Positions 23,959 through 28,014 of a stretch of DNA of 64,000 bases are shown piece by piece. The notes below the pieces were generated by a model. It saw only the letters and a program-made list of their open reading frames with translations, ran no database searches and was not told the DNA's origin. The position numbers and the translations under genes were made by a program. The stretch lies in assembly GCA_934555895.1 (NCBI GenBank), contig CAKTFH010000007.1, forward strand, positions 1-64,000, read 5' to 3'. The DNA comes from an uncultured Muribaculaceae bacterium. GTDB taxonomy: Bacteria; Bacteroidota; Bacteroidia; Bacteroidales; Muribaculaceae. Every line of letters starts with the position of its first letter. Position 1 is the stretch's first letter.

Positions 23959-24576
23959 TTAACGGAGGTCTACAATCTCCACTCCGGGATATTTTTTCGC
24001 ATCGAAACGGAAAGCAGATGCCGCAGGAGCTTTGACTTTCTCTATTTCCTTGATTTTTATTGAAGTGACAGCACCGTCAGTGGTGTAAAAAACAATCTCT
24101 GAAGGCAGTGATGTGGCCTGCGACACGGCTAGCACTATTTTGGAATAGTCGGATTGCCCTTTCGGCTTGAGCTCAAGCATGTCGAAACCTGCTGGAGCCG
24201 TGAGGCGCCGTGCGGTGTATTCTGCCCGCAGGCTTTCCATTATGGCAAACGGATTGACCTGTGTAAGTTCGTCGGCTGTAGGCTCCGACACGCTCACTTC
24301 GCTTGTTCCGAGTGAATAGGTCCACTGCGTGCGTCCGTCATACCATGTCTGCATGGCCTGTGTTGAGAGGTGGAAGCGGCTGCCGGCGAGAAGGATGTCG
24401 CCGGTAGCTGTCTCGCCGTTGTATTTTACCGAAAACGAGGCCTTCAGTGCCGGCATGCTTTTCATTGCCTTGGAGGTGCGTGTCATAATGTCGGCCGCCG
24501 TAGGAATAGCGGCGAAGGCCGGGAGCGAGACCATCAGCAGCATTATTGCCGAAAATATTTCGCGGAATTTCTTCAT
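23959..24576 (-). CDS. lolA: LolA-like outer-membrane lipoprotein carrier
   Basis: A 205-residue periplasmic protein with a signal peptide (MKKFREIFSAIMLLMVSLPAFA). The body (MPALKASFSVKYNGETATGDILLAGSRFHL, WYDGRTQWTYSLGTSEVSVSEP, LELKPKG) is the half-open barrel pattern of LolA. It should carry lipoproteins across the periplasm. Placement downstream of ftsK is common in Bacteroidales. Its start codon lies only five bases from the end of the 347-bp palindromic element (24582-24928), so the element forms its immediate 5' region. Confidence 0.88.
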   Translation of the reverse strand: MKKFREIFSAIMLLMVSLPAFAAIPTAADIMTRTSKAMKSMPALKASFSVKYNGETATGDILLAGSRFHLSTQAMQTWYDGRTQWTYSLGTSEVSVSEPTADELTQVNPFAIMESLRAEYTARRLTAPAGFDMLELKPKGQSDYSKIVLAVSQATSLPSEIVFYTTDGAVTSIKIKEIEKVKAPAASAFRFDAKKYPGVEIVDLR

Positions 24577-24600
24577 ATCTTAGAGCTTGTTTAATAATAA

Positions 24601-24738
24601 ATGTTACGGGCAGGGCGGTCAGTCGTCGCGCAGATTTTCGCTTGCGATGAGGGAGTTATGGGGGTCCATAACGACCGAAGAACAAGCGGAAAGATGCCGG
24701 CGAATGGCCGATTGAAAGTATTATTTTCATACAATTAA
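24601..24738 (+). CDS. possible 45-residue peptide in the left arm of the palindromic element
   Basis: An open frame MLRAGRSVVAQIFACDEGV... whose ATG lies inside the terminal inverted repeat. The equivalent frame in the right arm (minus strand, 24909 to 24847) begins MLPAG and reaches CDEGV at the same offset, then meets a stop. Shared frame and CDEGV could mean an ancestral peptide, or could be a by-product of the conserved hairpin sequence. It is antisense to the ftsK-lolA transcript. Confidence 0.2.
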   Translation: MLRAGRSVVAQIFACDEGVMGVHNDRRTSGKMPANGRLKVLFSYN

Positions 24739-24778
24739 CATATTTTTACTATTATTTCATGGACGGAGGTAAATTCCT

Positions 24779-24919
24779 ATGATTATAAAATCACCTTTGC
24801 TTCGCATATCTTGGCCGGTTTTCGTCCTGTTCCTCAGTCATGTACTTCAGTACACTCCTTCGTCACATGGCGAAAACCGTCTCAAGCTATGCGACCCTGC
24901 CGGCAACATTTATTATTAA
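24779..24919 (+). CDS. possible 46-residue membrane peptide in the right arm of the palindromic element
   Basis: An ATG preceded by a GGAGG sequence nine bases upstream, which is unusual in this genome, opens a frame MIIKSPLLRISWPVFVLFLS... with one hydrophobic stretch (about 7-22), ending in GNIYY. It runs through the large hairpin 24803-24893. The corresponding frame of the left arm (minus strand, 24730 to 24656) starts MKIILSIG and ends after 24 codons. Evidence for translation is weak. Confidence 0.2.
   Translation: MIIKSPLLRISWPVFVLFLSHVLQYTPSSHGENRLKLCDPAGNIYY
24803..24893. other. nested 91-base hairpin of the right arm
   Basis: CGCATA-t-CTTG (24803-24813) pairs with CAAG-c-TATGCG (24883-24893). 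CGGTTTTCG (24816-24824) pairs with CGAAAACCG (24871-24879). TGTACT-tc-AGTACA forms the inner hairpin (24841-24854). The purine-rich strands CTCCTTCGTC and GTTCCTCAGTC make the internal loop. Confidence 0.7.
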
Positions 24920-24967
24920 ACAAGCTCTTAATTGATAACGGATTGACTGATGATGCGGTTCATGGCA

Positions 24968-27883
24968 TCACAGAGAGTGAAGGATATCCTGCAGCCCGAT
25001 CATGTCGACAAGCACCTGGCGGGGCTTTCCTCCCGACACCGGCGCCGGACCGACTATACCAACGGCCTCGAGCTGATCCATTATTTTGCCCGCGCGGGCA
25101 AAACCGATGCCGAAACGACGCTGTACTGCTGTGGTGGAACCGATACCGGAGTTCACCACAGCCTCGGCAACTTCGTTGAAAAGCACATCGCGGTCACCCA
25201 ATGTGCCTGCGCCGGCGCCAAGGCCCATCGAACCGGAGCCTTCATTTTCCATAGTAGGCTCGGGCAGAATGTATGCTGTGGGATAACCGGCCTGCGACTC
25301 TATGTGGTGGCAGATGGCCTCCACCTCGGGTGTGTCGATGAAGGCACACTGCACTCGGGTGAGATTGCCGTTGTGCATGAACAGCATGTCGCCGCGGCCG
25401 ATGAGCTGATTGGCTCCGGGTGTATCGAGGATGGTGCGGGAATCGACCATGGATGTCACACGGAAAGCTATACGGCCCGGGAAGTTGTTTTTAATCATGC
25501 CGGTAATCACATCAGTTGAAGGGCGCTGTGTGGCCACAATCATGTGTATGCCCACGGCGCGGGCCTTCTGCGCGATACGTGCCACAGGCTTCTCGATTTC
25601 TTTGCCTGCCACCATTAGAAGGTCGGCAAACTCATCGATAATCAGCACTATATAGGGCATGAAGTGATGGCCACGGTCGGGCATGAGACGCTTCTGCACA
25701 AACTTCTCATTGTATTCAGCGATATTGCGCACTCCGGCATCGCGGAGCAGGGCCAGACGGTTATCCATCTCGGTGCATAACGATATGAGAGTGGGGAGCA
25801 CCTTGTCCATCTGGGTTACCACAGCCTCCTCCTCATCAGGCAGCTTGGCCAGGAAATGGCGCTCGAGCACGCTATAGAGGCTGAACTCGACCATTTTTGG
25901 GTCTACAAGCACAAACTTCAGCTCAGCGGGATGGCGTTTGTAAAGCAGAGATGCTATGATGGCGTTGAGGCCCACCGATTTACCCATACCGGTCGCACCG
26001 GCCACAAGAAGGTGAGGCATTTTGGCGAGGTCGGCCACAAACACCTCGTTGGAAATGGTGGCGCCCATGGCCATGGGAAGCTGTTCCTTGCCTTCGATGA
26101 AACGCTTGCTGCTCAAGATGCTGCGAATCGATACCGTCTGTGGGTCTTTGTTAGGCACCTCGATGCCGATGGTGCCCTTGCCGGGCATGGGCGCTATGAT
26201 GCGGATGCCAAGGGCCGAGAGCGACAGGGCGATGTCATCGCCGAGGTTTCTGATTTTGGCGATACGCACGCCCTCGGCTGGGATTATCTCATAGAGAGTC
26301 ACCGTAGGGCCCACAGTGGCCTTTATCTTGCTGATTTCGATGCCGTAGTCGTTGAGGGTCTTGCGGATGCGGGCCTGATTCTCCTCCTGCTCGTCGATGT
26401 CAACGATGTTTTCTTTCTGAGGTATGTCGCGCAGAAGGTCAACCGACGGCTTCATATAATGCGAGAGTTCGGCAGTGGGGTCGTAAAGCTCTGTACGCCC
26501 CTCGTCGGCTGTCTCTATCTGTTGTGTAACCACCTCTATTTCCTCAGGGGAAGTTTCCGCTACTATCTCAGCACTGACTTGAGAATGAGGCTGCTGCTCT
26601 GGCTGATGGGAGGGTCGTTCCTCGGGCTGATGGGAGGGTTGCCCGGCGGGAGGCTCCGGGGGAAGATAACGGGCATGGTCAGCGATGGCATAGGGGTCTT
26701 CGGCCGCCGGAACGGAGTCGTCGAAGCCCACCGTAACCGGAACGCGAGGCTCTTCGGGCTCGTCGTCGGCATGGGCGGCTGCCGTTTCATCCTGTGCCGC
26801 CTCGCGACGGTCAGCCGCATTCATGGCTTCACGCACCCTTATGCGATCCTGTTCATGCTCGTATCTCGACTGCTCGAGTTTCTGCAGATATGCCCGGCGC
26901 ATGGAGCGCCAACGGCTTATCAGACGGTAAATATCGTTGATAAACACATAGCATACGGCCACGATGGCCAATGCGCTCACAAGCGCGGCACCCACCCAGT
27001 CGGTATTGGCCACGAGCCATTGGTTGACATACTGGCCGTGGTAGCCTCCGAGATTATAGTCGGTGCCGAGCCAGAGCGACACAAGGCCGAGAGCGAGCGA
27101 TGTTGTGATGCCAACAAGCAATGTCTTGAATGTAAGTGACCAGAAGGATATCTTGCGCAATCCCATCAGTCCTAGTCCGAGAAGCACCAGATAGACAAGA
27201 AGCGCTACCGAACCAAGGCCGAAGCCCTCGACAATCACGGTGTGAGCCAGACGGGCGCCCACTGGGCCTGCCGCATTGTGTACATCGCCGGCTGCAGCCA
27301 TCTCGCCGATTGTCTGCGATGTCACGGCACTCTGGTCTTCTGCTCCTGTGCGGAGAAACGAAATGGAAGCCACGGCCATATAGACCGCCACAAACACGAG
27401 CGCCACTCCTAAAACAGCATGGAAGCGTCTGTCGCACAGGAATTTCACCACCGCATAGTCGTGAAACGGCTTGCGGGGCTTTTTCTCTTTTGGCTTGGCT
27501 GACTTGCGCGAGGGCTGTGAGGCATTACGGCTCTGGGAAGACGGCGCCGATGCAAGCCGCTCGGCTGGTTCTGTCTCACGGCGCGCGCGCTGGCGGCTTC
27601 GGGGTCGCTCGTTGTCGCGCTGACTGTCGCGCATATCCCCTCGGCGTGATACGGAGTTTTCCGGGCGCCTGTCGCGGTCATCTATATCAGAGTCGTATTG
27701 GTCGCGATAAGTGCGGTCAGGGTCGTAGCGCGAACCGTAAACCGGGCCGTCAAGTTCATCGTCGTAATAGTCTCGTCGGTCAGCGGCGCTATAGCGACGC
27801 CTACGTTCGTCACGGTCAAATGAATCGCGGCTGTTGCCGCGATTGTCATATATATCGTCTCTCATGTAGCGTTCTTCTCTCAT
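24968..27883 (-). CDS. ftsK: DNA translocase FtsK
   Basis: About 971 residues. A charged, Arg/Asp-rich N-terminus (DNRGNSRDSFDRDERRRR) precedes about four or five membrane helices (FHAVLGVALVFVAVYMAVA onward, about 160-320), an Ala/Pro/Glu/Gln-rich linker, and the RecA-like motor with Walker A GATGMGKS near residue 630 and Walker B-like IVLIIDEFADLL. The C-terminal gamma winged-helix domain is present (STTAVQRRFGIGFARAGKIMDQL), which reads KOPS/FRS-type sites. It pumps chromosome DNA through the septum and activates dimer resolution. A -7 box at 27922-27929 excludes the upstream ATG at 27934. Starts at 27883 or 27865 are possible. Confidence 0.93.
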   Translation of the reverse strand: MREERYMRDDIYDNRGNSRDSFDRDERRRRYSAADRRDYYDDELDGPVYGSRYDPDRTYRDQYDSDIDDRDRRPENSVSRRGDMRDSQRDNERPRSRQRARRETEPAERLASAPSSQSRNASQPSRKSAKPKEKKPRKPFHDYAVVKFLCDRRFHAVLGVALVFVAVYMAVASISFLRTGAEDQSAVTSQTIGEMAAAGDVHNAAGPVGARLAHTVIVEGFGLGSVALLVYLVLLGLGLMGLRKISFWSLTFKTLLVGITTSLALGLVSLWLGTDYNLGGYHGQYVNQWLVANTDWVGAALVSALAIVAVCYVFINDIYRLISRWRSMRRAYLQKLEQSRYEHEQDRIRVREAMNAADRREAAQDETAAAHADDEPEEPRVPVTVGFDDSVPAAEDPYAIADHARYLPPEPPAGQPSHQPEERPSHQPEQQPHSQVSAEIVAETSPEEIEVVTQQIETADEGRTELYDPTAELSHYMKPSVDLLRDIPQKENIVDIDEQEENQARIRKTLNDYGIEISKIKATVGPTVTLYEIIPAEGVRIAKIRNLGDDIALSLSALGIRIIAPMPGKGTIGIEVPNKDPQTVSIRSILSSKRFIEGKEQLPMAMGATISNEVFVADLAKMPHLLVAGATGMGKSVGLNAIIASLLYKRHPAELKFVLVDPKMVEFSLYSVLERHFLAKLPDEEEAVVTQMDKVLPTLISLCTEMDNRLALLRDAGVRNIAEYNEKFVQKRLMPDRGHHFMPYIVLIIDEFADLLMVAGKEIEKPVARIAQKARAVGIHMIVATQRPSTDVITGMIKNNFPGRIAFRVTSMVDSRTILDTPGANQLIGRGDMLFMHNGNLTRVQCAFIDTPEVEAICHHIESQAGYPTAYILPEPTMENEGSGSMGLGAGAGTLGDRDVLFNEVAEAVVNSGIGSTTAVQRRFGIGFARAGKIMDQLEAVGIVGPAPVSGGKPRQVLVDMIGLQDILHSL

Positions 27884-27921
27884 TAGCAATGTGATAAAGT
27901 GTTTGGTTGAAATACCAATCA

Positions 27922-27929
27922 CAAATTTA
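27922..27929 (-). promoter_or_regulatory. -7 box of ftsK
   Basis: TAAATTTG on the minus strand fits TAnnTTTG. No clear -33 box is seen. Transcription would start near 27915, which fixes the ftsK start at or below 27883. Confidence 0.55.
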
Positions 27930-28014
27930 GACAAAAAACATGAGATTTCTACGACGATAGAATAAAAACAAGGTAAAATTTACAAGCAGCAAACCGCGGC
28001 CGAAGTAATGGCCG

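Follow-up and report, generated by a model that had tools for sequence, protein, structure and literature searches.

The window analysed here, a 64,000-nucleotide stretch from an uncultured Muribaculaceae bacterium, carries ftsK (24968..27934, a mechanically called reading frame with a putative start codon) and lolA (23959..24576, with Pfam LolA-type domains on its relatives) co-directionally on the - strand, and the spacer between them holds a 347-base palindromic repeat exactly where a preliminary description of this DNA had placed it (24582-24928). Comparison with related copies places the transposon proper most plausibly at 24583-24927 (345 bp, GAGCTTG...CAAGCTC) with TTA on both sides, the two copies of the target site duplication lying at 24580..24582 and 24928..24930. 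Self-comparison and alignment of copies set the terminal inverted repeats at 24583..24615 (+ strand, GAGCTTGTTTAATAATAAATGTT...) and 24895..24927 (- strand). Their outermost 24 bases are exact inverted copies, as had been claimed (two matches in the window with up to three mismatches allowed, against 0.00 expected), and over 34 bases 94% of the positions in the arms pair; a register of 40 bases had been proposed for the arms, but they match over only ~34 before diverging.

Inside each terminal repeat lies an arm hairpin, recognised by its fold and by a covariance-model match: the left at 24616..24712 on the + strand, the limits of its lower stem being approximate (match 24632-24697 +, 76.2 bits), and the right at 24802..24894 with its motif on the - strand (match 24815-24878 -, 70.2 bits). 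From the sequence and the hairpin alignment, the 5' and 3' loop strands are GATGAGGGAG (24646..24655) and GACCGAAGA (24673..24681) on the + strand of the left hairpin, and GACGAAGGAG (24855..24864) and GACTGAGGA (24831..24839) on the - strand of the right, which agrees with the earlier observation of shared purine-rich strands around apical stems that change while staying paired. The middle of the element (24713..24801) is poorly conserved in the alignment, and longer relatives have transposase remnants or genes here; the window's list of open reading frames holds no long frame inside the element. Folding gave z-scores of -11.1 and -12.0 for the two strands, with 0 of 100 dinucleotide shuffles as good on either. 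Of the single long stem-loop once envisaged beside the lolA start, the terminal stem stands, but in the predicted fold it closes a junction with the two arm hairpins and some smaller ones. The core RGGAG-stem-YGACY (stem of at least 5 pairs) occurs exactly twice in the 64 kb, both times in the element's arms (GGGAG...CGACC on the left, AGGAG...TGACT on the right), and in 20 order-1 Markov controls of the window it was absent from 18 and occurred once in two.

One end of the repeat lies five bases before the lolA start codon (24577-24581), as had been noted, and the lolA frame is open. The insertion would thus have displaced the entire native leader of lolA, a gene generally regarded as essential.

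Mobility and the IS5 connection

The ftsK-lolA spacer was examined in 30 relatives, and the repeat was absent from it in all 29 in which both genes could be located; the hairpin model returned no match across all 30 loci. The closest genome by FtsK search, G001 (locus L001), shares 86% identity over 344 C-terminal residues. Copies do exist elsewhere, DNA matches to the element at E ≤0.1 occurring in 68 of 149 family genomes, with whole-length copies at identities of 83-85% in G120, 84% in G093, 79-80% in G004, 70% in G021 and 69% in G116. Full-length places number at least four each in G120, G093 and G004, in a search that scored four candidates per genome. End-to-end alignment was achieved for 13 full copies, and all 12 full copies of G120, G093 and G004, which were gathered by BLAST and not by motif, carry both hairpins facing inward. 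A distant blastn search of a plasmid collection with the element gave no match.

The three bases flanking each side were identical in 29 of 34 elements of the window type and related types (TTA in 20, TAA in nine), the 34 being those of the loci examined whose ends were clearly readable. The other five read TAA/TTA (three), TTA/TAA (one) and ATA/TTA (one). Four loci (L087, L089, L093 and L211) combine a TAA flank with a TTA flank, a pattern that might reflect a difference between strands at the central target base, or recombination between copies. Duplication of a TNA target is typical of the IS1031 group and a hallmark of IS5-type MITEs.

Longer versions of the element contain pieces of an IS5-type transposase between arms of the same kind, and two hairpin-bearing loci, L132 and L130, encode transposases that exceed the cut-off score of NCBIfam NF033580 (IS5 family transposase). 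L277, which coincides with L130, measures 1,112 bp and has both hairpins as well as terminal repeats that match perfectly over 34 bases. Relatives of the L132 transposase were found at E ≤1e-20 in 67 of 397 family genomes; among the 30 transposase loci returned, 14 contain at least one hairpin match and seven (L264, L265, L268, L269, L271, L276 and L277) have an inward-facing hairpin on each side of the transposase, with open transposase frames of 263 aa in L269 and L271. A midpoint-rooted tree built from 24 of the 30 (L266, L267, L270, L275, L278 and L290 being omitted as fragments or masked) groups its ten hairpin bearers together, joined by one hairpin-less row, L291. The length between best ends, which are weak in some loci, is 893-906 bp in 11 of 15 hairpin-less loci and 1,032-1,291 bp in nine hairpin bearers, and when 14 hairpin-less loci were searched for the hairpin without filters, the best result was a single match at E 0.93. 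L291, which belongs to the hairpin clade of IS5 elements and has 1,115 bp between its ends, gives no model match, although its arms still fold; it would be a case of hairpin loss or of a diverged form. The ends of the IS5 loci compared are related, not identical, to those of the window element (L286, AGAGCTTGTTTAAAAACAAATGTGAA; L268, AGAGCCTGTCCCATAATAAATGTTAACG), and no intact IS with exactly its ends was found among them. The mobile, non-autonomous character first suggested for the element is thus upheld by full copies elsewhere, 29 spacers without it, TNA flanks and hairpin-bearing IS5 relatives. On this comparative evidence it is almost certainly an IS5-family MITE, which would have jumped into the ftsK-lolA spacer as a 345-bp unit.

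The covariance model (R1) finds the hairpin in 87 of the 149 family genomes. At E ≤1e-4 there are nine to 72 hairpins in each of 24 positive genomes hand-picked from the 87; some others of the 87 have just one or two matches. Pairing yielded 23 two-hairpin elements under a rule that accepts only a + hairpin followed by a - hairpin and so favours the inward count; loci with other neighbours were L146, L193, L228 and L241, L193 and L241 each being a distinct element with its own ends. The description of the element as a head-to-head duplication fits the two-hairpin elements; single-hairpin relatives of ~160-215 bp with other ends also exist, some of the rows classed as solo being single arms in which only the lower stem, and no end, was found. 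The ends of some single-hairpin elements are nearly identical to those of hairpin-less IS5 elements (L193 with L287; the right end of L237 with L284 and L288). The hairpin is therefore a module common to MITEs of more than one IS5 lineage, and not merely the leader of a transposase gene.

Beyond the family the hairpin is rare. A phylum-wide model search with strict filters, under which weak matches are lost, matched one of 296 genomes, G001 itself. An order-wide search matched 10 of 295, at least three of which (G001, G008 and G023) belong to the family set. Inspection of five of the other seven matches (those apart from G700 and G805) found the core in L298 and L299, a changed core in L296 and L297, and a short, doubtful match in L300. 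Locus L297 (genome G896), outside the known family set, has two similar adjacent hairpins at ~1430-1634 with the changed core AGGAG...TGACGAG, perhaps another branch of the same structure.

Structure and covariation of the hairpin

From base to apex the hairpin comprises a stem, a loop in which tandem G·A motifs can form, and an apical stem that covaries. Its internal loop can be read as 5'-GA-Y-GA-R-G-GA-G-3' against 5'-Y-GA-C-Y-GA-R-GA-3', with standard covarying pairs between the tandem G·A motifs, which may be sheared pairs. The strands first described as constant and unpaired are therefore conserved, but readable as tandem G·A motifs with covarying Watson-Crick pairs in between. Our alignment (A2) comprises 39 of 64 distinct hairpins, hand-picked for diversity; 89.4% of its 819 pair cells are paired, against 35-47% with slid partners and 63% after shuffling, and 19 of 21 pairs change on both sides. 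RNAalifold, run on A2 with no structure supplied, proposes nearly the same structure. Row selection required GGAG, GA[CT][CT]G[AG] and five or more inner pairs, so that the constancy of these letters and of the inner stem is partly built in; what counts as independent evidence is the outer stem, together with pairs 17-48 (U-A 14, C-G 11, G-C 4, U-G 4, A-U 3, other 3) and 20-45 (A-U 22, G-C 13, G-U 2, other 2).

Among 87 distinct rows retrieved by the model, which itself favours the structure, the two inner G·A motifs are near-invariant (83-87 of 87 per column) and the outer one is variable (55-62 of 87). The conserved structure that had been postulated is thus seen both in these columns and in the two-sided changes of A2. 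Neither outcome that the preliminary description had named as fatal to its reading, an element with no further copies or copies lacking compensatory stem changes and constant loop strands, was observed. In the same rows, G·U or U·G fills 168 cells against 31 for A·C or C·A; pair 26-92 contributes 67 of the G·U cells and pair 9-108 another 36, and 21 of the 31 C·A cells come from the doubtful pair 15-102, the count without these three pairs being 65 against 10. This marked excess of G·U over A·C suggests selection on the motif strand and not on the duplex, and it is highly likely, as far as sequence comparison can say, that the single-stranded form of this strand is what selection acts on.

Known structures do not account for the hairpin. 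Rfam gave no match at gathering score in the window and none at E ≤1 in 24560-24950. The GATGAG...CGAA letters recall the core of a hammerhead ribozyme, an identity that we rejected because there is one continuous outer helix and not three, and because Rfam gave no match. A kink-turn was rejected because the strands of the internal loop are about equal in length, with no three-base bulge in the alignment, and a terminator because the hairpins inspected have no T-run. A further sequence, GGTAWYTT, follows many hairpins at 18-22 bases (L192-L277); the strict pattern was found in 29 of 96 against 3 in 288 control windows, and by eye it is apparently limited to two-hairpin elements.

How the hairpin may act

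We favour, at a probability of roughly 0.55, the reading of the window element as a MITE carrying a structured single strand that acts mainly as RNA. The motif strands run inward from both ends, so that a transcript entering from either side would first make one correctly oriented hairpin. The hairpin could then be bound by a host RNA factor, either a nuclease of RNA processing or a ribosomal or RNA polymerase protein; once bound, it might turn the insert into a separate RNA domain, with the result that insertions between genes would be tolerated and copies would persist. That the hairpin acts as RNA rather than as DNA we consider probable, and a role in making operon insertions tolerated we put forward tentatively, as a possibility somewhat short of even odds. 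Our preference for RNA rests on the kept G·U wobbles, the strand asymmetry and the entry-facing hairpins, and by analogy on MITE transcripts that are cut: Correia/NEMIS elements of Neisseria are inserted beside genes and the stem-loops of their transcripts are cut by RNase III, as one source describes (PMC2229807), and ERIC is reported to affect mRNA through RNase E (PMC2229807, PMC10969869). Correia/NEMIS elements are likened here to ours by description, as MITEs adjoining genes. Were both arms derived from a single end, the inward orientation would simply be inherited, and by itself it is no argument for RNA. Against an RNA role, solo elements between co-directional genes have no sense bias, although a role in host mRNA might give one: 35 classified against host genes, with neighbours judged by longest open frame only, comprise 5 sense, 11 antisense, 11 divergent, 2 convergent and 6 unclear. 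The orientation result is not clear, and it supports neither RNA nor DNA.

An alternative that we regard as unlikely, though not negligibly so, is that the hairpin acts as single-stranded DNA, folding when an arm is exposed during replication or excision, so that the transposase or a host factor uses the fold to find or synapse the ends and hairpin MITEs jump more often. The fixed place of the module just inside the ends of two-hairpin elements would suit such a role, as would its retention in MITEs without a gene, the absence of orientation bias to host genes and the stability of tandem G·A motifs in DNA too. IS5-type transposases, however, are DDE enzymes, whose substrate is generally taken to be duplex DNA, the wobbles so often kept (G·U, or G·T in DNA) are better suited to RNA, and one IS5 clade with the same flank triplets manages without the hairpin. 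In IS10 and IS50, transposase leaders limit expression from read-through transcripts, and the hairpin might likewise be a transposase mRNA leader that MITEs merely inherited; a sense hairpin does lie between end and transposase frame in L132/L263, L264, L265, L268, L269, L271, L276 and L277. This we hold to be improbable, given that the likely start lies outside the hairpin in the four leaders inspected, that the 3' hairpin, conserved to the same degree, points in the opposite direction, that gene-less MITEs keep the covarying structure, and that some single-hairpin MITEs have ends like those of IS5 elements lacking it. Least probable of all, and already disfavoured, is an ordinary MITE in which a palindrome or terminator without a function of its own is kept by mutation bias or copying. 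In its favour, MITEs as a rule are palindromes for which stable folds are predicted (PMC2229807, PMC10969869), and some copies within a genome are near-identical, so that alignment cells are not independent; yet the covariation extends across diverged families when set against the slid-partner control, the G·A columns are near-invariant, the strands are asymmetric and no T-run follows the hairpins inspected.

Relation to ERIC and other repeats

Outside the Bacteroidota, the model, run on 727 bases of an E. coli locus with an ERIC, scores best at the ERIC core (16.9 bits, E 0.0015). In a separate 49.5-kb E. coli stretch, the best match again reaches 16.9 bits (E 0.099; the next 12.2) and sits in the sole ERIC found there by blastn, and RGGAG-stem-YGACY has a single occurrence there, against zero in 20 Markov controls. 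Being 97% identical, the two ERICs count as one case. Like the window element, ERIC is an intergenic palindromic MITE, and its AGGAG-stem-TGACT fits the same pattern; unlike it, ERIC is 127 bp long, with TATA-type ends, one hairpin and one G·A motif only, lacks IS5-type ends and belongs to another phylum. The window element is not an ERIC, as similarity to the ERIC consensus over its length is absent and only model positions 20-46 match. The shared core is short, about ten letters around a stem, and judged from its letters convergence appears as likely as common descent.

Closer in phylogeny are BrickBuilt and other MITEs of Porphyromonas gingivalis, Bacteroidales elements with ends like those of IS5-family ISPg elements; BrickBuilt differs from the window element in its tandem-repeat interior, in ends that begin CCGAAAGG and in irregular flanks (PMC4596501). 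REP/RAYT repeats, set apart here by description, have a tagged hairpin served by a Y1 transposase, unlike the present elements with their IS5-type ends. With IS5-family elements the window element shares terminal inverted repeats, 3-bp TNA flanks and, in its relatives, an IS5-type transposase between related ends, but window-type elements differ from IS5 at large in the covarying tandem-GA hairpin inside each end, which a related IS5 clade lacks. We know of no such hairpin module in IS5 elements, and the literature searched, in partial listings that make for weak evidence of absence, held no description of this hairpin.

A broader and doubtful possibility is that RGGAG-stem-YGACY is a portable module in unrelated MITEs of two phyla, recognised by a widely conserved bacterial factor, the IS5 MITEs of Bacteroidales extending the core shared with ERIC to two or three tandem G·A motifs. 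If true, this would link ERIC to a relative whose transposase is identified, and would give it an RNA (or single-stranded DNA) partner open to testing.

IS5 MITEs are a known kind of element, and what is new here is a conserved tandem-GA hairpin common to several MITE types and to IS5 elements. MITEs are usually seen as passive leftovers in which the ends alone matter; a structure kept by compensatory changes across element families, in up to dozens of copies per genome, suggests that something beyond the ends is selected. The finding supplies a covariance model for repeat annotation, a motif for protein-binding tests and a possible handle on ERIC.
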